DNA of 64,000 nt, from contig NC_090784.1 in the NCBI RefSeq assembly GCF_040054535.1, positions 15,634,501-15,698,500 on the forward strand, in the 5' to 3' direction. Shown piece after piece: positions 14,189 through 60,714 of this stretch (the first letter of the stretch is position 1; the number at the start of each line of letters is the position of its first letter). This stretch comes from Antennarius striatus. Taxonomy: Eukaryota > Chordata > Actinopteri > Lophiiformes > Antennariidae. The notes under the pieces were generated by a model. The model was not told where the DNA came from, did not search any database, and saw only the letters and a list, made by a program, of their open reading frames with translations. The position numbers and the translations under genes were made by a program.

Positions 14189-17100
14189 TCATTTACTGAG
14201 ATTTGTTGCGTGTGTTTGGATCGTTACCCTCCGTGGTGGCATCTCCTCGGGGCTCTGATTGGCTACCAGGTCCTGCAGCTGCAAAGCTCCTCCACCAATG
14301 AAGCAGAAGGCCGGACAGACTGGAGCTGAACAATCTATATGTCCATGACACAGGATACGCAGCGAATGGGCATCATAGAAGGTAACATGTCCTTTATCAC
14401 AGTCTAGACACACTCCTAGTTGGGGTGGGAGAGGAGTGGTGTGAGGGTGAGGCAGATTGCTAAGGGTGCTATTGTGGGATTGCACTCCTCCCAGGCTGTG
14501 GCTGTCCCCTTGGCTCTGACTGTGGCCATATCCTTGAGGAAGTAGGATCTTGCCCATGCCTATTGTAAGGAAGAAGAGGGGAGGAAAGTCCTGGCCGTCC
14601 TCCGCTCCACTGTCATGGCCACTGTCGGGGTCACACCTGAGAAAAGGTAAAACATTAGGCTGTGTAAGAGAAAAAAATAAGGGAGGAGCAAATAATATGA
14701 TACCAGTGGTAGAGCTGACAACAGCTATACTATTGAGCCAGGTAGCTGTATGCTGAGTTGGGTTCAGTCCCTGGCATCTGCTGTCCTAAGGGGGCACAAG
14801 CCAGTGTCACCTGTAGGTCAGCCCCAAGCCCGGATAAATGCTGAGGGTTGCAGAAGGAAGGGCATCCAGTGTAAAAAACTTTGCCCAACAAAGTTTGGGC
14901 CCATATTTGTTGGGCCTAAACCCTACCTAACAAATGTCTCTTGTACCAGACTTGCAGGTGAATAAATAATCCAAATTGTAAATTTTAAAACTTTACATTT
15001 TATATTTTAGATGATTAAGTTACCGAGGGCTAGACATTTCCTGAGGGAGATGAAACCACTCTTGTAGCTTCGCCTCCTGCCCTACCCCCACCTGTAAGAG
15101 AGAATTGCAGAGGTAGAAAACTTTGATAGCTACAGGTAAAATAAAGTCCATATCTAAACATTATTACAGCAAAACTAAAGACTTATAACCATCCTTCTCA
15201 CCTTTACCAGATACGAGCCAGGCTCCACAGAGCATGCCCAGTAGTGCCTGCCTTGAGTGACGGCCAAATCAGCCACCAGCAGGTCAGAAGTCAAGTGGCA
15301 AGAAGTCAGTGTGCGGTCAGCAGCCTGCAGGAGAGAGAGGCCTGGCACACTGCGGGCATAGGTTTGGCCTTTACCCAGTGCCAACCTGTCAGCATGCAAC
15401 CCCCAGCGGGAGTCCAAGGAGAAACTCAATACTGAGAGGATAGGAAAAGGAAGCATAGAAGGAAGGGAAAAATGGGTAAAGAGGGAGAGAGGTAGTGAGG
15501 AAAGTCAATGAAAGGAGTCAGGAGGGAGTAAATTCGGAAGCTGCAACAGCCAGCCACAGTAAATCCAAACACATAGTGGATAAAGAGATCAACAAGAGTC
15601 AGAAGATTACATGTTAGAGGAGGCCGATCAAGAAAAAAGATGCATTCAAGAGGAAAAGTAGGAAGTGCCTTTGCCAGGAGGAGGAAACATGAGAGAAACA
15701 GCAGAGGTAACATTCACTCTAGTTGATTGTTTCAACTGATCAGATCAAAAAATGGTTTGTTGTGAAGAGATGACAATGAGGGAAGAGAGGGATATTTTTA
15801 AATGAAGAAGGACAGACCTGTAGCAAGACAGACAGCAGTGAGAGTCTGACTGGAATGAAAGTGGAATGTATAACAGACACAAGAAGGTCTGTGCAGAAAC
15901 GTAACTAACACCTGAAGTTGGAATGGGACAAACTAGGGGATGGAGAGACAAAAGAAAAATCAAGATTAGTCCATCAATTGAAAAATGACATTAAAAGAAA
16001 AAATAATCCACCAATATTTGTTTTCTTTGTTACCAATGCAAAACAAATTGTTTTAAAAATTTAGGATGAAAATTTCCAATCTTGACTTTTTAAAGTGCAC
16101 GTCTTTTGCCAAAGTTGATCAATTCTGTGACGTTGCATCGGGAAAAAAGAAAGAAAAGAGAAGCATTTCTTGCAGTGAATGAAATGCAAAAATGAAAATA
16201 TTGATAATGTAATAAAGTACATATCAATATCTCACCAGGTGCTGGTGGAGTGTGGAGGTAAACTTCCTCACTGTACTCTCCAAACCCAGCTTTGTTGCAG
16301 CCTCTCACCCTGAGCACATACACACTGTCTATCTGCAGCTTATCAACCACAGCATTGGCCCCTCTCACTTCATCCAGACGCTGCCACGCTGTTGCAGCAT
16401 TAGGGGATCTTGTGCCGCCCCACGTGGCTGCAGCTCCTCCTGCTCTTCGCTGGTATTCAACAGAGAAATACCAAGCTGGGGCTGAGTCCTGGGGGAGGCG
16501 CCAGCACAGAAACAACTGGTCATAAGCAAGCGTCTTCTGAGTGTCAATGACTGGAGCCAGCGGGGCTGTGTGGAGGAGAAAGATGCACATTTCTTTAATT
16601 TATCCTCATAAAAAAAATTTTAAAAAAAGATTGATCTTTTCCTCAGTTCATATCACAGACACAAAGAGCCTACTGTGTATGTACTCCAAGCCACGGATGA
16701 GCTTGATTTCTTTGGATGCATCGAGGTGAAAATGTCTGAAGGATGAATCAGCAGAGAGAGAGAAACGCTGAAGGCTTTCTATGGCCTTCACCAGTCTGCA
16801 GAGGAACATTTCACACAGGACATTTCACTCAACATTTTCCAAAAAGAGGAACAAACATTGATGAAGAAATGTCATAAAGTCAAATCTAATGAATTCAGTG
16901 CTTGTGTATTTAGAGTGTGTTACCTGTTGTGAGTGACTCTGGCAGCCTGAACAAAGCAGGGTGCATCTGTCTCCTTCAGCAGCTCCTGTGTGTATGCCGT
17001 CAGGCCCGCATACTCCAGCAGGCCTCGCCTCTCTGAAAGCTGGGCGGTCAGGGCCTCCTCCCTCCTGCTGCGGGACCCGTCCAAGGCCAGGGTCAGAGCC

Positions 17101-20100
17101 CCCTGACGCTCCGCTACAGCCGCTCCCAGCTCACGGATGAAGAGGTTCAGCTGATGCAGAGCTACAACACTGTTCGCCTGAAGAACAGGAAGATTAGGAA
17201 ACAAATAAAACTGAAGTGTGCCATTGTGGTATACTGGTAGACTTCCATTTCTATATAACACTAACTAATACCTATAGAAACACGACCTATCCCTTTAGCT
17301 GTAACTGGAAAATGGAGGAATAAACCAGGGATGGATTCTCAGTTCGTTGAATCACAATTTTTTTAAAAAAAAGTAATTTCCTCTGACAACACTGTGTGTT
17401 GTTACTTCTTGCAAAAAAAATCTATATTTAAATCAAAGTCTCGAGGTGTTTAATACTATTGCACTCAGCAGAATAATGCAGCAGAGCCTATTACAAATAC
17501 TATTTTAACTGTACAAAGATAAAATATGACGAAAATTACAGGTAATAGGAAATAAGATGATATACTGAACCTCCATCTGTTTTATAGCATCTTCTAAGCG
17601 AGTGATCTGACTTTGTATCGTCTCCTGGTTGGCCAGGATGAAGCTGACTTCCTTGATGATCTTTTCCTGTAAGACCAAAACCAAGGTTCACATTACAAGG
17701 TTCATAACATAAGGATCTTTACACAGTTGAAATGCACACAGAAGCTGACCTTGAGGTACTGGTAGGCCTCTGCAATAGGCAACACTCTGTGCCCGTGGTG
17801 GACACGACGGAGCTTACAAACTGAGCACAGTAACCTCTGGCAGCTGCAGCAGTACCACTGCAGTCTCTCCTGCTCGTGTTCTGTGCATGTTAAGACCTAG
17901 AAAAGAGAATGGGATGAAATCACAGCAACAGCAGAAGAGAAGCTATTACTTACGATGCAAAATAAAGCAGACAAACCTTGGGCCGAAAGTTGTTGGTGGG
18001 TAGAATGTGTTCATGTTGTGCTCGAGGAGTTCCCCAAGGGTGGTAAAGTTTGAAACACTCGTTACAGAAATTGGACTTGCAGTCAGAACAGCCTTTAGTA
18101 GCCTCCAGAGACTGAGGAGGCTTACAGAATCCACACATGATGACTATGTTGCCCAGACTTACTGTGTGTCGATACCTGGAGGCCAAAGGGGGCACAAAGA
18201 GATAAGAGCAGGCCTTAAATTATTCTGAAGTTGAATAGAAAGCAAGAAAGAATGAATCCTTTAAACTAAAGAAAGAAGAAATTGAACTCATTTAAGTTTG
18301 ATTTGCTCTACTTTCTGGAGTTGGGAGTCCAATTCTTTAACTGCCTGACCTGGATACATCACTAGTAGCTGGCTTGTTAGTGCATCCTCCACAGTAAAAC
18401 ATGCAAAATCACATTTTCTTGACCAGCGCAATTGCTGCCTGGGGAGGGAACAGCTACGGTCATCAAAGTGCTGTGTGAAACTGTGAAACCGCCTTTTCCC
18501 ATAACTCCAAACCAGAAGCAGACCTCTCTTCAGTCTTCAGTATTTGTTTTTGCTAAGAGAGGATGATGAACATCACAAGAGAAAAAAAATATTTCTTTCT
18601 AAACATCCTCGACAAACCTGAATCAAAACCATTTCACCTGTTGTTTTCCTACAGGATGATGTATCGTTTGAGCTATCCCAGCATTCCTCTCTCTGGCTTA
18701 GCCTCAGCGGTAGAAGAAAGATTTATTATTGAAACTTGTTCCGCTAAATGATTTCCTGGCTTATTTTTGAAGCCGAATTGACTGAGCCCTTCACTTCTAA
18801 TGATACCTCATCATCCACGGAACTACTGCATTTTTTAACACATTAAGACTTTGTTATTTCTGTTAATGAGCAAGTGATGGAATATTATCACAGGTAAAAA
18901 ATAAGCTTACAACTCAAGCTTGGAACAGAAGTGTTGGTTCTGCTTGTACCTCATGCACTTTTCTACCATGACAATGATCCAAAGCACACATCTAAGGTCA
19001 CTGCTGTATTTATGAAGAAGATCAGGGTGAAAGTGATTCAGCGGTCAAGTATGTCTCCTGACCTCATCCTGATCAAACACATATGAGGAATAAGAGTGAC
19101 TCTCCATCCATCATCCCAGGTTTTAAAAGGGGTCATTCTTCAGGAATGGAGAAAGAGATAGATGCTAGAACATGTTGACAACTGGTTTATTCCATGCCAA
19201 GAAGACTTTATGCTGTCCATAAAAATAACGGAGGCACTACGTAATATTAGATGAGGTAAGTTTTGATAGGGTGTATTCATTTTTGCACAACTAAGAAGAT
19301 TTTGTTACCTAAGTTACATTTTAACCCAAGATTTAAGTTGTTTTTTTAGTCAGTTTTTCAAAAAAATATTGGTAATTGCACTTGTGGTGTATATATACTG
19401 TATATACAGACAGTGTATACACTGTATGTGTGTATATATACTGTATATGTACTGTAGAATGTGAATATACTGTATACATATATGTATACCACAAGTATAC
19501 CACAAGTACAATCAGTTTTATTAAAAAAACAACAACACACACACATGCATACATACATACACATACATAGATAGAATACCTCTCCACAATCCGCTCTAAT
19601 GTGAGGTTACGAAGGCAGTCTGCCAGGCCTTTCTCTCCAAGCGCCACATCCTGCTGACAGGAAGGACATGGGAACAACATGGAGGGAGGGGCTGTGTCTT
19701 TCCGTCTCCGACCTGGGTATGTCCCACACACTGGGAGAAAGATGCAGGAAAGTGGATGAGAGAAGATGGAGGAAAAAAACATGGAATTAGTTCACTGCAC
19801 TCACACACACCTGCTTGGCTGCCTCCCCTGTCTCATGCCTGCAATGCCCCTAGTCTACGAGCATTTGAATAAATCATGACAAGCTATACATAAAGTAGAA
19901 TAGAATAGAATAGAATAGAATAGAATAGAATAGAATTGAATTGAATTGAATTGAATTGAATTGAATTGAATTGAATTGAATTGAACTGAACTGAACTGAA
20001 TTGAATTGAATAGAATATTACTTTATTCCTCCCCCAAAGGAGAAATTCCCATTGTCCCATCCCATTCCCATACAGGAGCATAACAGAACAGCAGGCAGGC

Positions 20101-21416
20101 AACACACACTACACTACACACTCTTCAATAATAAAAGCAAAATAGAATGTAAGTACAATAGAAAATGTACACATGCCCACATATACACATTAATCAAGTA
20201 CAAATGGCCCCTTGTATATACAATGCTGGATGTGATTATGACAACCATGATTGATGAAATTACATGAAAGGTGGGATCAGCTGCATCATCAGCTGCATCA
20301 TCATAGCACATCATCATCATGTGATTTCAAACTGATGATGTCACTATCTCAGGTGTCATCATGCTGAGATCATTCTAGAAAAACTTTTTTTCTTGGGCAC
20401 CTGAAAGTCAAAATTCAAAATGTTCACATGCACATAAATCCTCTCTCCACCTGTTCTGAGGACCCGGTCCAGGCGGTCAGGAGTTCTAGGTGTGGGCCTT
20501 CGAGGTAGTCGAGGGGAGCGGGAGTTGGGTGTGGAGGCCGGTGAGTTGGGTTCTGGAGGGAGGTCTGGAGGAGGATAACCTCTTTGGACCAACAACTCAG
20601 CGGCACACAGCAGACACACACTGTGGTGGCATGGCAGGAGGACTGGCTGCTTCACCATCTCATCACACAGTGGGCAATGCAGCTCCTGTTCCATACTCTT
20701 CATGTTGGACTGCAGAGGAGAGGATATGGATGTGGAAGAGGCAAATGTCAAGTAAAAAAAGAACTTTATTTTGAACGTTTTGCTAGTCTTGATCATTAAC
20801 AACACAGACCCAGAATTAGCTGAACAAGCACAAACGTAGGATTCTTTAATTTTAGGAACCTTTATCCAAAAGGAAAAGAAAAACATTTGAAAGAGATATG
20901 GTTCTTGGGTATTTCCGTTTGGTTTGCGTTGTTAATAGTTTTAGTGGCCTTGTTACAGCTAAACGCAGCATTTCGTTTCTATGACAACATGCATCATCTT
21001 TGACTTCTCGTCACCCGCGGCGATAAACAAGGATATAAGATGCGGTTAACATTTATTTTGTCAATCAAACGCTAGATCTAGATTTTTGCGGCCTAGATAT
21101 TTTTTTTAGGATTTCACCAGCAGTAGGAAAATTTTGCACAAAAAACCTCTGACATAACAGATGCTAAAACGTTCGGGGGGAAAAAAATATACAAGGCAGC
21201 CAGGAACATGGAACAACGTGTGAAATGTGATGTTTTTTATTTTATTTTATTTTTTTAAAATATATATATATATATATCAATATATACCGGTGTGTCTTTT
21301 CAAACACGCACGCGTGGTAGAAATAAATGGCGTAATAAAATGAGCGTCACACTTACATTTAAACGAACCAACTCGTCCATGATAGAGGTAAAGGTTTTCA
21401 AGTCCGCTTCTGCCAT
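14189..21416 (-). CDS. trim46: Tripartite motif protein TRIM46
   Basis: TRIM46 (TRIFIC) bundles parallel microtubules at the axon initial segment. Twelve coding exons on the minus strand: 21357-21416, 20451-20709, 19580-19730, 17977-18175, 17750-17896, 17571-17666, 16924-17177, 16674-16795, 16236-16565, 15202-15431, 15024-15091 and 14189-14636. They sum to 2364 nt (787 aa; mammalian form about 759). Domains in order: RING starting CPLCDEM and split by a Ser/Pro-rich insert as in class I TRIMs; a B-box with [19 protein letters not shown]; a second B-box ending HHGHRVLP; coiled coil; COS-box; FN3 ([20 protein letters not shown]); and SPRY ending [15 protein letters not shown]. The ATG is in [20 protein letters not shown], which matches the mammalian N terminus. 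The SPRY loop in the last exon is longer and His/Ser/Pro-rich. Introns hold a Tc1 remnant and a pentanucleotide repeat. The gene is divergent from tmem107. Confidence 0.96.
14745..14960 (+). repeat. SINE/LINE-like fragment in trim46 last intron
   Basis: The phrase GCCCCAAGCCCGGATAAATG, followed by GGAAGGGCATCCAGTGTAAA, is a hallmark of a widespread teleost retroposon (recalled from general knowledge). The copy is truncated. It lies in the intron between the last two trim46 coding exons. Confidence 0.6.
18930..19310 (+). mobile_element. Tc1/mariner transposase C-terminal remnant
   Basis: A + strand frame reads [19 protein letters not shown], then [11 protein letters not shown] where Tc1 transposases have SPDLNPIEN, then [19 protein letters not shown] is the diagnostic segment around the second catalytic Asp of Tc1 DDE transposases. 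The frame carries internal stops and only the 3' third is recognisable, so this is an old inactive copy. It sits in trim46 intron 3 in the opposite orientation to the gene. Confidence 0.75.
19376..19570. repeat. TATA/TGTA-rich simple sequence in trim46 intron
   Basis: An imperfect tract of TATACTGTATA-type palindromes followed by a CA/CATA-rich segment next to the exon ending at 19580. Its open frames on both strands are repeat artefacts. Confidence 0.7.
19896..20190. repeat. (TAGAA)/(TTGAA)n pentanucleotide repeat plus retroposon-type tail
   Basis: Pentanucleotide units change from TAGAA to TTGAA to CTGAA over about 120 bases. They are followed by TTACTTTATTCCTCCCCCAA, the same kind of tail that follows the GATA runs elsewhere in this window. 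It lies in a trim46 intron. Confidence 0.8.
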
Positions 21417-22363: not shown

Positions 22364-23619
22364 ATGTCGGCTATCGGCAGTCTTGTCCCTGCGCGGTTTT
22401 TGACTCTCATAGCCCACCTTGTTATCGTCATTACGATTTTTTGGTCAAGGGTGAGTAAGGAAATATTAGCTTATCCTAGAAGACGCTAAATGATTTAGTC
22501 ATGTCCTCATATACTTGCATAATTAATGTCGAATTCTCGTCTTTTGTTCATGATTTTCATTCTGAGCATTTTAAATATACACTTCACAGGAAAACAACGT
22601 GAAAGCTTGCTTGCCTTTAGATTTCACGCAAGAGGAGTATGACAAGGAAGACAAAAAGTGAGAAAATACTAAATAAATAAATGAAAAATAATTTTACATA
22701 CACGCTGACTTGTTTGGTTTCGTGTCAGATTGATGGTGGCTCTGGCGGTCACCATCGGTATGTTCGCCATAGAGTTGGCTGGGTTCTTCTCAGGAGTGTC
22801 CATGTTCAACTCCAGCCAGGGTCTTCTGTGTATCCTTTACACTTAAACTGTTTGTCTCTTATAAATGATAAAAAAATTAATATTGGTACAGGTTAAATAA
22901 AATTAAATAATTAAATAAAAGCGGTATAAAGTACTGAAGATGGGAATTATTGTTGGTCTTTAATTGAAGATGGCGACAAACTTAGCCAGAAACCTGGTTT
23001 TAAATTAAAAACATATTGACCAAATATTTAAGTATTGAAATAGATAATTGAAATGAATATTTATCAAGTAATTGTAAACGTAAGTTATAGTTCCATGACT
23101 TTAAACTCCGGTGCATTTGCCTCTTTGCTTACTTTAGCAACAGGAGCCCACGCCAGTGCCTCAGTGGCTTTGATATTCTTTTTATTTGAGCAGTGGGAGT
23201 GTGACGTCTACTGGTGGATCTTTGCCATTTGCAGGTTAGTGAACATTTACCCAAACGTGTGTATGTTTCTTTTTTCCAAGAGTGTTTTTCCCTAACAGAT
23301 ACTGAACACAGCACTAACTGTCCACTGCAGTGCATCTGTATCCTTGTCTTTCTTTGTTTTTGAGAGGTGGGAGTGCTGGACATATTGGGTTATTTTTGCC
23401 ATTTGCAGGTTGGTGTTTTTTTATGTGCACATTTGTGTACAGCATTAGCTTTCATAGAGGACTAAAGGGATTTATCAGGATGCAGCTAAATAATCTGGCT
23501 CTGTTTTCAGTAGTTCTTTCTAAACTTCTGTTTCTGTGTTTATCTCTAGTGTGCTGCCTGCTTTTGTGGAGATCCTTCTCTTTATAGCTGTTTTTGGACT
23601 GAAGAAGAAGCCATTGTGA
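22364..23619 (+). CDS. tmem107: Transmembrane protein 107 with a duplicated fourth coding exon
   Basis: TMEM107 is a four-helix protein of the ciliary transition zone, part of the MKS module. Exons: 22364-22450, 22590-22657, 22729-22829, then either 23138-23234 (4a) or 23312-23408 (4b), then 23550-23619. Each isoform is 423 nt, or 140 aa, equal to the human protein. Conserved segments include LVPARFLTLIAHLVIVITIF, CLPLDFTQEEYDKED, GMFAIELAGFFSGVSMFNSS and the C-terminal GLKKKPL. Exon 4b (HCSASVSLSFFVFERWEC) resembles the human segment more than 4a does (HASASVALIFFLFEQWEC). Both exons are 97 nt, enter in phase 1 and leave in phase 2, so including both or neither shifts the frame. It is head-to-head with trim46 and just upstream of krtcap2. 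Confidence 0.95.
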
Positions 23620-28053: not shown

Positions 28054-28987
28054 GTAAGTCCTCTCAAATCACGGATCGTCCGCTTCTCTTGTTTCCAACG
28101 TTGAGACGCGCTTTGGTAGAAATTTGCTTGGAAACAAAAGTCCACATTTCGCGATGAAAACGAAGGAGTTATGGTAAAATGTGGTACATGTTAGTTCGAC
28201 GCGGGTGTCTAAATGCAAAAACTGTTTTGTTTTGTTTTTTTTCCAACGTTTTTCATGGGTTTTCCTCATTTTTCTCTTGGGTGGGTTTGGGCGTCATTGG
28301 CGCATTACGCAGCAGTTTCCACCGCAGACATGTAGCCGCTCGCCCTCTGTTTGTCATCTCAAGGTTCTGGACGTCTCGTTTTTGAAACTCTTCCTACAAA
28401 TGATCAGTGGAAAGGAAAGGCATGCGAAGAGTGGGAGCTGTGAGATAAGGTTTTTAGGTTTTATGCCAGGAAAAAAAAAAAAAAACGTTTGAAAACCAGA
28501 GAATTCACTCAGAGCGCCAGTAAAACCAACACCCACATCCTGACTTAACAATGTGTTTGCTTTGGCCGTAGTCTGCTCATTGGTGGAAAGGCCACTCAGA
28601 ACAGTTACCTCAGGACAGCATGAAAAATATTACATTTCAGGAAGATTTGAATCATAAATTACAGTTAATCATACACTAATGTTCACAAAATTATTTAATA
28701 ATAATTAAATATATGTATTTAACAAGTGATGACATTGAATATACAGGGTAGTGTAAAAAAAATGGCTGCAGGCTCATGGTTCAATAAAGATCTAAGCCTA
28801 TTTAACTTCTAATATTGGGTAAATAAACTAAGTTTCACTCTTCATACTCAACTGCGTGTAAAATACCGATACGGCTCAGTAGCTTCCTGTACTTATCAGA
28901 TAAGTGAAGAAGACAATGAAGACCTATGTCCTGTGATTTTGACACCCAGATTTGTCTTTCCTGCTTTCAGCACCTGTCTCTGCAGAC

Positions 28988-29399
28988 ATGACTGCTTTGG
29001 AGAAATGCATGGAGTCCCTCATTGTCATTTTCCACCGCTATGCTGTTCAAGATGGTGATGGGAAGACATTAAGCAAAAGAGAACTGAAAAAGCTAATTGA
29101 CGAAGAGCTACCCAGCTTCATTAAAGTAAGTATATTCCACCCTCCTATATGTACACGTATGATTAATCTACCCCCAATACCCATGACTCATCCATCTTCC
29201 TTAAATTAGCATCCTAACCTTGTTGCTGCTTTTGCAGGCCCAGAAGAACACTCAAACAGTGGAGTGCATTATGAAGGATTTGGACCTCAACAAAGATGAT
29301 AAATTGGATTTTGAAGAGTTTCTCCCCCTCGTTGCAGGCCTTGCGCTGGCCTGTGAAAAGTGTTACAACCTCCACGAGAAGAAGGGAAAGAAGCAATGA
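28988..29399 (+). CDS. s100a11: S100A11-like EF-hand calcium-binding protein
   Basis: S100 proteins are small dimeric calcium sensors. Coding exons 28988-29125 and 29238-29399 give 99 aa. The N-terminal S100 loop (YAVQDGDGKTLSKREL) and a canonical C-terminal loop DLNKDDKLDFEE, with Asp/Asn/Asp/Asp/Glu at positions 1, 3, 5, 9 and 12, are intact. The segments EKCMESLI, SFIKAQK and LVAGLALACEKC match the S100A11 pattern best (mammalian: ERCIESLI, FTKNQK, LIGGLAMAC). The tail ends in a basic KKGKK. A poly(A) signal lies near 29460. S100A11 and SNX27 are also near each other in human 1q21, which supports the name. The subfamily call is from memory, without a tree. Confidence 0.8.
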
Positions 29400-33654: not shown

Positions 33655-34550
33655 ATGGAACCTGAAACTGGTGAGTGATAGTGATACACAAGATCTCAGG
33701 GAAGATATATTTGTGGAAGGAAAGAGCAGCAACAATGAAGTAAATTGTGATGCAGAACTTACAATATTGAAATGTTTATTATTTCCTACTAAAACCTCAA
33801 GCTATTGATGTTGAATGTACACTTTTATAACTTATGAAAATATGATGTACTTCAGAATATTTATTCTGTTATTTATTAAGTTATTAACCTACAGCCTGTC
33901 TATTTTTTTTTTTTTAATTACTTGCTTTTTTGCACATATTAATCAACAGTACTGTTCCACAGCTTCAGATATAGCCCCTTTGGACCAGGTTATTTTAAAT
34001 ATGGTGGAGATATTTATGGAGAATGCTACCAAAAACAAGATTCATAAGGACAAGCTGCCTGAGCTGCTGAATTCAGCGATAACAAGTACTGAGTTGACAG
34101 TAAGAGAATTAAATCACTCACAAATGATATTCACATCTTTAAAGAAAGCGTTGATTGTCCTGCTACTTGTTCAGAGCTCATATGCTAAATGGAACCTTGT
34201 ATTTTCAGGAAAAACTCAAACCAGATGAGATCACCAGAGCCATTGAAAATTTGGGAAAAAAAGAAGATGACGACAAAATCGATTTCATAGAGTTCAGCAG
34301 ATGCGTGACTATCCTGGCCAAAAGATACTTTCATATGAAGATAGGCAAGGTGATGAAGGGCGAGGAGGGTAACAAGGGTGACAAGGGCAAGGTGGACAAC
34401 GAGGTTGATGAGGACGACAAGGGCTGCAAGGGCTGCAAGGACAAGAAGGATGCCGAGGGTGACGAGGGTGACAAGTGTGACAATGGCGGCAAGGGCAAAG
34501 GCCAAAAGAAAGACAAAGATGGAGAAAAGGATGGCAAACAAGAAGAATAG
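33655..34550 (+). CDS. S100-domain protein with Lys/Gly/Asp/Glu-rich tail, copy A
   Basis: Three coding exons: 33655-33670, 33975-34099 and 34209-34550, encoding 160 aa. The acceptor at 33974 was chosen by homology with copies B and C; one a few bases upstream would also keep the frame. Residues about 8-90 form an S100-like two-EF-hand domain (LDQVILNMVEIFMENAT, then EKLKPDEITRAIENL and KIDFIEFSRCVTILAKRYF). The C-terminal loop is degenerate, with Lys instead of Asp at position 1. Residues about 95-160 are a polyampholyte tail with four Gly-X-Y triplets (GEE GNK GDK GKV), then irregular D/K/G/C sequence with three Cys. No signal peptide and no membrane segment. I do not recognise this S100 subfamily. 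AATAAA at 34766-34771. Confidence 0.85.
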
Positions 34551-36922: not shown

Positions 36923-37753
36923 ATGGCAACTGGTAAGTAATGATCTCCGGGGAGATATATTTGTTGAAGGAAAGAGCAGCAGCAATGAATTAAATAATGA
37001 TGCAGAACTTACAAATTTTGAAATTCTTGTATATCTCACCTGGCTTTACTAGGCACTGAAAAGAATAGGAGAAAGCTTTATTATCTACTACTAAAAACTG
37101 AAGCTGTTGATAGTGAATGTGTACTTTTAAATCTTATGAAAATATAATGGTTGTTCAGAATAGTTCAAGTTATTTACTTGCAGCCTCTCTGTCTTCTAAA
37201 ATTTTTAAATTATAGCCCGTTTGGACCAGGTTATTTTAAACATAGAGAAGATTTTTACAGAGAATGCTACCGAAAACAAGATACCTAAGGAAAGGCTGCC
37301 TGAGCTGCTGAATTTAGAGATAAAAAGTACTGAGTTGACGGTAAGAGAATTAAATCAATCACATATGATATTCACATCTATAGGTAAAACGTTGATTGTC
37401 TTGGTTCTTGTTTAGTGCTCATATGCTTAATGGGAACTTGCATTTTTCAGGAGAAACTCAAACCAGAAGAGTTCACCAGAGCCATTGATAAATTGGAAAA
37501 AAAAGGGGCCGATGAGATCGACTTCAAGGAGTTTGTTCAGTGCGTGACTATCCTGGCCAAAAGATACTACAATATTAAGAATGGCAAGATACAGAAGGGC
37601 GAGAAGCGCAACAAGGGCAACAAGGGTGGCAAGGGAAAGAAGGACGACGAGGGTGACGAGGGCGAGAAGGGCGAGAAGGGCAAAAAGGGCAAAAAGGGCA
37701 AAGGTAAAGGTAAAGGCAAAGATGGAGAAAAGGACAGCGAACCAGAAGAATAG
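36923..37753 (+). CDS. S100-domain protein with Gly-X-Y/Lys-rich tail, copy B
   Basis: Three coding exons: 36923-36932, 37216-37340 and 37451-37753, encoding 145 aa with the same intron phases as copies A and C. It starts MATARLDQV. The S100 core reads LDQVILNIEKIFTENATENK and EKLKPEEFTRAIDKLEKK, then EIDFKEFVQCVTILAKRYYN. The second loop lacks normal calcium ligands at positions 1 and 5. The tail keeps a triplet register for about 16 triplets (GEK RNK GNK GGK GKK DDE GDE GEK GEK GKK GKK), some without Gly, and ends SEPEE. TATA-like box at 36857-36865. AATAAA at 37920-37925. Confidence 0.87.
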
Positions 37754-39732: not shown

Positions 39733-40632
39733 ATGGCAACTGGTGAGTAATGGAGATATATAAGATATCAGATATATTTGTCGGTGGAAAGAGAAGCAAC
39801 AATCAATTAAATTATGATGTAATATTAAAAATGATTGAATATATGTCATCTGCCTTTACTATGCACCGAAAGGAATGCAATTGAAAGCTTTATCATCTAC
39901 TAAAAAAAACTCAAGCTGCTGATGTCAACTTTTGTGTCTTAAGAAAATATGATGGTAGTTCGGAATATTTGAAGTTATTTACCTCCAGCCTGTATATCTT
40001 TACATTTTTATTTTCTTTTTGCTCATATTAATCAACAGTCATTTTCTATACTGACACATATAGGCAACTTGGACCCGGTTATTTTAGGCTTGGTGAAGGT
40101 ATTCACGGACAATGCCAATGAGGACGGCAAAATTGAAAAGGATAACCTGCAAGGGGTGCTGGATTCAGCGATAAAAAGTACTGAGTTGATGGTAAGAGAA
40201 TTAAATCACTCACAAATGATATTCACGTGTTCAAATGAACTGTGATTGTCCTGCTTCTTGTTCAGTGCTCATATGCTTAATGGGGCATCGCATTTTCAGG
40301 AAAAGCTCAAACCAGATGAGATCACCAGAGCCATTGAAAATTTGGACAAAAAAAAAGACGAGGACGGCAAGATCAACTTCAAGGAGTTTACTCAGTGTGT
40401 GAATACCCTGACTAAAAGATACTACAATATTACTACAGGCAAGGGGAAGAAGGGTGAGAAGGGCGAGAAGGGCAACAAGGGAAACAAGGGCAAGAAGGGT
40501 GAGAAGGGCGAGAAGGGAGAGAAGGGTGAGAAGGGCGAGAAGGGTGAGAAGGGCGAGAAGGGTGAGAAAGGAAAAAGGGGCAAAGACCGTAAGAAAGGTA
40601 AAGATGGAGATAACAGCGAACCAGAAGAATAG
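39733..40632 (+). CDS. S100-domain protein with 16 perfect Gly-X-Y triplets, copy C
   Basis: Three coding exons: 39733-39742, 40064-40191 and 40300-40632, encoding 156 aa. It starts MATGNLDPVILGLVKVFTDN. The first EF loop region has NANEDGKIEKDN. The second, DKKKDEDGKINFKE, keeps Asp, Gly, Ile and Glu but is two residues longer than the 12-residue canonical loop. After TKRYYNITT the tail has 16 uninterrupted Gly-X-Y triplets (40444-40587; ten are Gly-Glu-Lys) and then an acidic end SEPEE. The tail is coded by a 9-bp unit GGN GAG AAG with silent third-base variation at Gly. No proline in the triplets and no signal peptide. Collagen-like by register, but triple-helix formation is an inference. 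Confidence 0.88.
40444..40587 (+). repeat. 9-bp coding minisatellite in copy C
   Basis: Sixteen in-frame 9-bp units, most of them GGN GAG AAG with C, T or A at the glycine third base. The absence of stops in several frames explains the Arg-rich and Pro/Ser-rich shadow frames on both strands. Confidence 0.9.
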
Positions 40633-44980: not shown

Positions 44981-45797
44981 TTTTTTTTTTGATTTTTGCA
45001 AAAACACTTTAATCTCATTCAAACATTTTGCAGTTTTACATTAGATGAAAGCATTTAAGTGCCTCAGAACATCTTTCCAAACAAACTTCAATCACATTTA
45101 ACATTTAGAACATTTAGAACATTTAGAACATTTTACAAATTTTCATTAGATGAAATTTCAAAAACACTAAACACTCAAAAACATTAAACACCAAGAAACA
45201 AAGGGAAATACAATATAAGAATTAGTGCATTATAACAGGAAGTTTGCAAAAGTGAGGTGGTCATCAACTAAAGTGCATAGGGCATTTTTGTAACACCAGA
45301 TGTTCCTAAAGTTATTCAGGTCTTTTGTCAATTTATAGAAACCAAATTCTAGTTTTAAGCGACATCTGATGTTACAGCAAAAAACAGTAGCTGCTTCTTG
45401 AGCGGTATTGTTTTCAATTTTCCTCTTCCTGGTCACATGAATTGCAAGTTTTGCCTCCCCAGAAATAAAATTTAAAAGCTGCCACTTTCTCTGATTCGAT
45501 CTATTGTACCCAGCACCGTAGATGAATTTCCTGATACTAAAGTTTTCATTGAACAAGTTAAAAACATTCGTTAGAAGAGTGAAGAGCACTGCAAGTCTCC
45601 CACACTCACTGAAAGCATGAAAGACTGTCTCCTGAAGAGGACAGAAGGGACACTGGCTGGACACTGCAGGGGCAAAAACAGAGACAAAAGCATTGGAACC
45701 GACGGCACCATGCAAAATCCTCCACTGGAGGTCGGCTGTTTTTTTCTTGAGGGGAGGTTTGTACAGAAGTCTCCACTGCGGGTCAGGTCCATTTCAC
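44953..45797 (-). mobile_element. LINE 3' end, first of two adjacent copies
   Basis: The minus-strand frame 45230-45715 (161 aa) contains CPFCPLQETVFHAFSECGRL, a reverse-transcriptase C-terminal zinc-binding (zf-RVT) segment, then LNFISGEAKLAIHVTRKRK. This is the usual 3' part of L1/Tx1-type non-LTR elements. The element ends on its 3' side in a poly(A) and an AAAG-type tail (44953-44990). It is 5'-truncated and lacks the reverse-transcriptase core. Confidence 0.75.
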
Positions 45798-53060: not shown

Positions 53061-53437
53061 ACTGACTGAAGAAGCCTCTTGGATAAGAGGTGAAATATCT
53101 CGGTGGATTTATTCAAACAATATAACCACAGTAATTTTCTAGAACCCATAAACTTTCTTGGCTGCCATTGAGCGATGACTTCTGACTTTCAGATTCATTT
53201 GTAACGTTCTATTAGAGCCAATACATAAATATGGCTGCGATGTTTACTCAAAATCTAACGTGACCCACATGGAACGAATCCTGCGGCGGACTCGTGAGTC
53301 TTCGGCTTCTTTCGTCATTTTCCGTTAATCTCACTCCGTTAGCTAGCAAAGCTACGTAGCCTGCTACCATCCGCTAATGTATGAATGACATGTATCGCTA
53401 GCTGGATTGGAGTGGATGGTACAAATAGAGTAGAAAA

Positions 53438-60714
<7,277 letters not shown>

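Follow-up and report, generated by a model that had tools for sequence, protein, structure and literature searches.

A tandem-duplicated exon 4 downstream of a U12-type donor in tmem107 of Antennarius striatus

Described exon pairs at minor introns and the tmem107 locus

The nearest known cases to the exon pair described here are JNK/Mapk9 and mouse Tmem87b, both characterized below from excerpts of the cited papers. In JNK/Mapk9, U12- and U2-type sites at a hybrid intron are used in a mutually exclusive manner, and the exon choice is tissue-specific (PMC3584512, PMC6717393). Exons 11 and 11a of Tmem87b form a mutually exclusive pair of equal length associated with a minor intron in the gene of a membrane protein (PMC6717393). 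Exons 4a and 4b of OGDH, a third vertebrate pair, are mutually exclusive as well and are separated by a short intron; exclusivity is enforced there by branch points located 25–41 nt from the donor in human (PMC7969005). U2 and U12 sites are generally incompatible (PMC3584512), and this incompatibility is counted among the means of enforcing mutually exclusive exons (PMC7969005). In some genes, the staggering of major and minor sites makes the selection of exons mutually exclusive (PMC6865273). Spliceosome incompatibility separates only a small number of exon pairs, 5 of 629 human clusters in the excerpt of PMC5740500.

The tmem107 gene of Antennarius striatus, located in the 64,000-nt stretch of contig NC_090784.1 that was analysed here (the window), resembles all three of these systems and differs from each. 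It carries two adjacent copies of exon 4, termed 4a and 4b, behind a U12-type donor. The geometry mirrors that of JNK/Mapk9: the minor intron lies upstream of the pair in tmem107 and downstream in JNK/Mapk9, and the hybrid intron of JNK/Mapk9 consists of a U12 donor and a U2 acceptor, whereas the predicted intron between 4a and 4b of tmem107 would consist of a U2 donor and a U12-like acceptor. As excerpted from PMC6717393, the Tmem87b exons are 72 bp long, a multiple of three, and 11a is situated inside the downstream minor intron; the tmem107 exons measure 97 nt and the minor intron precedes the pair. Human TMEM107 belongs to the same protein family and is named a minor intron-containing gene, the intron not being specified in the excerpt (PMC13216214). 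No tandem exon of human TMEM107 was seen in the excerpted literature on the gene, and no description of the tmem107 exon pair was found in the TMEM107 literature searched, most subscription-journal papers being outside this search.

Gene layout, homology and constraint of the twin exons

The gene is encoded on the plus strand and comprises six exons including the twins: exon 1 (coding part 22364–22450, ATG at 22364), exon 2 (22590–22657), exon 3 (22729–22829), exon 4a (23138–23234), exon 4b (23312–23408) and exon 5 with the stop (23550–23619). Intron 2 (22658–22728) has a length of 71 nt and is thus shorter than the 77-nt gap between 4a and 4b. Exons 1, 2, 3 and 5 were joined in silico with either twin, which resulted in an open protein of 140 aa in both cases; in the profile search the 4a and 4b isoforms reached 175.3 and 171.1 bits, respectively, on Pfam TMEM107 (PF14995, cut-off 26). 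Inclusion of both twins led to a stop after 134 aa, skipping of both to a stop after 97 aa. A full-length reading frame therefore accommodates only one twin exon per mRNA, as an initial annotation of this DNA had proposed.

That annotation was also exact with regard to the exon coordinates, the lengths of 97 nt, the AG acceptors, the CAG|GTTAGT and CAG|GTTGGT donors and the equal phases. Its peptide identity of 21 of 32 positions is consistent with our recount of 22 of 33, in which both junction serines were included. The peptides, each with the exon 3 junction base, read STGAHASASVALIFFLFEQWECDVYWWIFAIC for 4a and SLTVHCSASVSLSFFVFERWECWTYWVIFAIC for 4b.

The twins are adjacent, homologous and equal in length and phase, as expected of tandem-duplicated exons, and the proposed tandem duplication agrees with a nucleotide identity of 65/97 and with the match of both peptides to PF14995. 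The two longest direct repeats within 22830–23549 both link 4a to 4b with a 174-nt spacing, the second one extending into the donors. Exon 4a peptide alone scored 38.3 bits (E 1.9e-9) and exon 4b peptide alone 34.9 bits (E 2.2e-8), each above the family cut-off, and the two were aligned to identical profile columns; the full exon 3–4a join was aligned without a gap. Because the longest repeats occur at the 174-nt spacing and each peptide matches PF14995 by itself, the resemblance of 4a to 4b is, by sequence comparison, not due to chance. Neither copy appears plainly ancestral. The suggestion that 4b is nearer to the human sequence hardly holds, since 4b and 4a agree with the human peptide at 24/33 and 23/33 positions, and 4a scores slightly higher on the Pfam profile.

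Substitution rates between 4a and 4b were estimated according to NG86 over 33 codons, including 2 shared junction codons, and amounted to dS 1.1, dN 0.32 and dN/dS 0.29. The bootstrap interval of dN/dS was wide, from 0 to 0.72, with values below 1 in 99.7% and below 0.5 in 87% of bootstraps. Differences were distributed over the three codon positions as 10, 9 and 13 and were only mildly skewed. Neutral drift of 4b was simulated at several rates: at 0.5, 0.7 and 1.0 changes per site, 0 of 4000 simulations at each rate were stop-free with 22/33 identities, at 0.35 changes per site 0.9% and at 0.2 changes per site 26%. Given a dN/dS of 0.29 at a dS of about 1.1, both exons look old and constrained, and the constraint signal, obtained on 33 codons, favours two used exons.

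Splice-site classes and separation of the copies

Intron 3 starts with GTATCCTTT (22830–22838, plus strand), a U12-type 5′ splice site that matches the consensus RTATCCTTT at 9/9 positions and is the sole occurrence of this motif in the window after scanning of both strands. As a mean of 1.4 such sites per window is expected by chance, the weight of the donor comes from its place only and was judged after the fact; the probability of ATCCTTT following a given GT is about 9e-5. Compared to the U2 consensus, the exon 3 donor matches at 3/9 positions, versus 8/9, 7/9, 8/9 and 7/9 for the donors of exons 4a, 4b, 1 and 2, respectively. Exon 3 ends with TGT and consequently has no AG at −2,−1, a property described for GT–AG U12 introns in the excerpt of PMC10853781. 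The donors of the twins are U2-type, GTTAGT for 4a (23235–23240; 8/9 with the preceding CAG) and GTTGGT for 4b (23409–23414; 7/9 with the preceding CAG).

The two acceptors are of different appearance. Upstream of 4b no pyrimidine tract is present (23297–23311); the pyrimidine content at −20 to −5 is 44%, lower than at the other four acceptors of the gene. A candidate U12-like branch site TTCCCTAAC (23288–23296; 8/9) is located there, with a distance of 16 nt from branch A to AG. Its CTAAC could double as a U2 branch site. The acceptor of 4a is pyrimidine-rich (23118–23137; 81% at −20 to −5), and its candidate branch site TTCCATGAC (23091–23099; 8/9) is weak and remote, with a distance of 39 nt from branch A to AG and no intervening AG. 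Both candidates deviate from TTCCTTRAC at position 5. For the acceptors of exons 2, 3 and 5 (63–75% pyrimidine), a scan of 60 nt detected no branch-like site within one mismatch. At this tolerance the window contains 30 branch-like sites, no more than the 38 expected by chance, so that position alone carries the argument for 4b; the chance of such a site at 10–20 nt before a given AG is about 0.4%, again judged after the fact.

The excerpted literature gives a U12 branch-to-acceptor distance of 10–20 nt, with an optimum of 11–13 (PMC8199999, PMC3584512). Exon 4b thus shows the features of a U12 acceptor, namely a branch site within this distance, with one mismatch at position 5, and no tract, whereas 4a, at 39 nt and 81% pyrimidine, does not. 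Because 39 nt exceeds the published range, splicing of 4a may be inefficient or absent, or may follow a U2 route from a donor at 22758 (see below). From its sequence, it may be equipped with a weak U12 acceptor that is used when 4b is disfavoured, or may be a fading exon.

From these site classes, assigned by consensus, we infer that exon 4 underwent an old tandem duplication and that one copy enters each mRNA, the copies being separated by spliceosome incompatibility and selected by branch-site competition, and we regard this combined reading as somewhat better than an even bet. The copy joined to exon 3 would have to be recognised by the minor spliceosome, because the exon 3 donor is U12-type, and either copy would leave to exon 5 via its U2-type donor. 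Joining of 4a to 4b would combine a U2 donor with the U12-like acceptor of 4b, a pair that is not normally spliced, and the copies would thus stay apart. The choice would be made between the close U12-like branch site of 4b and the remote, weak one of 4a with its pyrimidine-rich acceptor.

The frame shift by itself would offer little protection. With both twins included, the stop precedes the last junction by 45 nt, and with both skipped it falls inside the last exon, so under the usual 50–55-nt rule nonsense-mediated decay would be a poor backup and neither aberrant product need undergo it. The tandem duplication and the frame exclusivity of the initial annotation are borne out; its steric explanation, a block of 4a–4b joining by the 77-nt gap, is not, and the U12 donor and the 4b acceptor had been overlooked. 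Intron 2 of the same gene is even shorter, and roughly 60 nt separate the 4a donor from the likely branch A of 4b, more than the 25–41 nt of human OGDH and over the steric threshold of roughly 50 nt between branch point and donor given in the excerpt of PMC7969005.

The exons might be truly mutually exclusive and yet be governed by tissue-specific repressors or enhancers, or by competing RNA structure, the U12 donor being incidental. Means other than U2/U12 incompatibility are the rule in the human clusters mentioned above (PMC5740500), and 12-nt arms of 92% complementarity connect the 4b acceptor (23300–23311) with the last intron (23501–23512). The base-pair probabilities of these arms are 0.15 or less. 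Against this reading, a perfect U12 donor is very unlikely to occur by chance at the end of exon 3. Competing structures were also sought as duplexes of the three introns, which were compared with dinucleotide shuffles (150 each); fractions of 0.75, 0.97 and 0.58 of the shuffles were at least as stable, and this candidate was rejected. We consider such regulation improbable, at about one chance in a handful.

Only slightly less credit is given to the possibility that a single exon is in use, its twin being a relic or seldom spliced in. The likelier relic would be 4a, because its acceptor looks U2-type (pyrimidine fraction 0.81, best U12-like branch site at 39 nt) but the exon 3 donor is U12-type and reaches only 3/9 as a U2 site. 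Against this, 4a is stop-free, retains both splice dinucleotides intact and outscores 4b by a small margin on the family profile. The pairwise dN/dS of 0.29 is also lower than the value of at least 0.5 expected if one copy drifts, which 13% of bootstraps nevertheless exceeded.

Very unlikely is a U2 route from GTATGT inside exon 3 (22758–22763, plus strand; TCG|GTATGT) to 4a, with full exon 3 joined to 4b by U12 splicing. This donor is the best in-frame U2-like one of exon 3, the resulting junction preserves an open frame up to the normal stop, and the 4a acceptor is pyrimidine-rich. The site nevertheless matches the U2 consensus at only 6/9 positions, which is equalled by one out-of-frame GT in the exon. 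The predicted product measures 116 residues; the 24 that it lacks belong to a conserved membrane segment, the second, most of which would be lost. By contrast, the join of complete exon 3 to 4a is free of gaps on the profile.

Chance resemblance or an assembly artefact is strongly disfavoured, a recent assembly duplication in particular because only 65/97 bases match and dS is near 1.1, and both peptides occupy the same profile columns.

Genomic context and ciliary relevance

The 548-Mb genome (42 contigs) was searched with PF14995 and with isoform A, and no convincing second tmem107 copy was found among the best candidates, which were scored. Five of the 10 matches listed for PF14995 and six of the 7 listed for isoform A are located in the window gene. 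Two candidate loci (L007, L008) were translated and bore no exon-like resemblance on visual inspection, L007 also containing stops, and a further one (L018, E 0.16) is apparently another frame of a Gln-rich gene. Three loci (L009–L011) reached 15–17 bits on PF14995, below the cut-off of 26, and were judged by scores alone. No relatives were detected in PDB or among viral contigs and contigs of prokaryote genomes.

TMEM231, another transition-zone gene that is listed alongside TMEM107 in the excerpt of PMC13216214, served as a control and contains a consensus AT–AC U12 intron in the same genome (L031, G000:C4:4846000-4855500, minus strand). Its ATATCCTTT donor is a perfect match, the branch site TGCCTTAAC lies 12 nt before the AC end, and the joined exons are open. 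Two 9.9-kb TCTN-family stretches, examined as additional controls and of uncertain gene coverage, contained no perfect U12 donor; a single branch-like site was noted there, with an AG 15 nt downstream.

The U8 snoRNA sits in the 3′ UTR of human TMEM107, as stated in the excerpt of PMC9104694. The window was screened with Rfam at gathering score, and no match was obtained. In this fish one U8 snoRNA was located, on another contig, C14 (L022, G000:C14:4404539-4404671); the surrounding stretch of about 19 kb contained no convincing tmem107 match (best E 0.33).

Other genes of the window were assigned by their domains. A SWEET-type transporter is encoded at 203–532, a gene with RING, fn3 and weak SPRY domains at 14189–20931 (minus strand) and a gene with PDZ and PX domains at 53429–57439. 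The latter two resemble TRIM46 and SNX27, respectively, and we take these neighbours to suggest a synteny that differs from the human TMEM107 locus. The frame 28943–29209 (plus strand) matches Pfam S_100, and neighbouring frames in the region 28943–50114 are S100-like by eye. Repeated Lys/Gly/Glu-rich tails are present in the plus-strand frames 34155–34550, 37388–37753 and 40246–40632; the last of these matches Pfam Collagen and the first matches nothing. On the minus strand, 45230–45793 weakly matches, just below the cut-off, a zinc-binding domain that accompanies reverse transcriptases and is probably a retroelement fragment.

With regard to the protein, exchange of 4a for 4b changes 11 residues within positions 87–112. 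According to hydropathy, the differences span the third hydrophobic segment, the loop (EQWECDV in 4a, ERWECWT in 4b) and the start of the fourth segment. Two exon-4 variants would provide one gene with two versions of the third membrane segment and loop, and exon choice might thereby alter ciliary function. TMEM107 is a transition-zone gene and is listed with Meckel–Gruber and Joubert ciliopathy genes in the excerpted literature; loss of ZCRB1, a minor-spliceosome gene, disturbs ciliogenesis (excerpt of PMC13216214). The exon choice may even serve as a read-out of the minor spliceosome, strong U12 function leading to 4b and weak or tissue-limited function to 4a or a stalled intron, which we put forward as a tentative and rather improbable extension. 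If it is true, the minor spliceosome would tune the composition of a membrane protein in the ciliary transition zone. A ciliary gene with an exon choice dependent on the minor spliceosome would be directly testable in fish.
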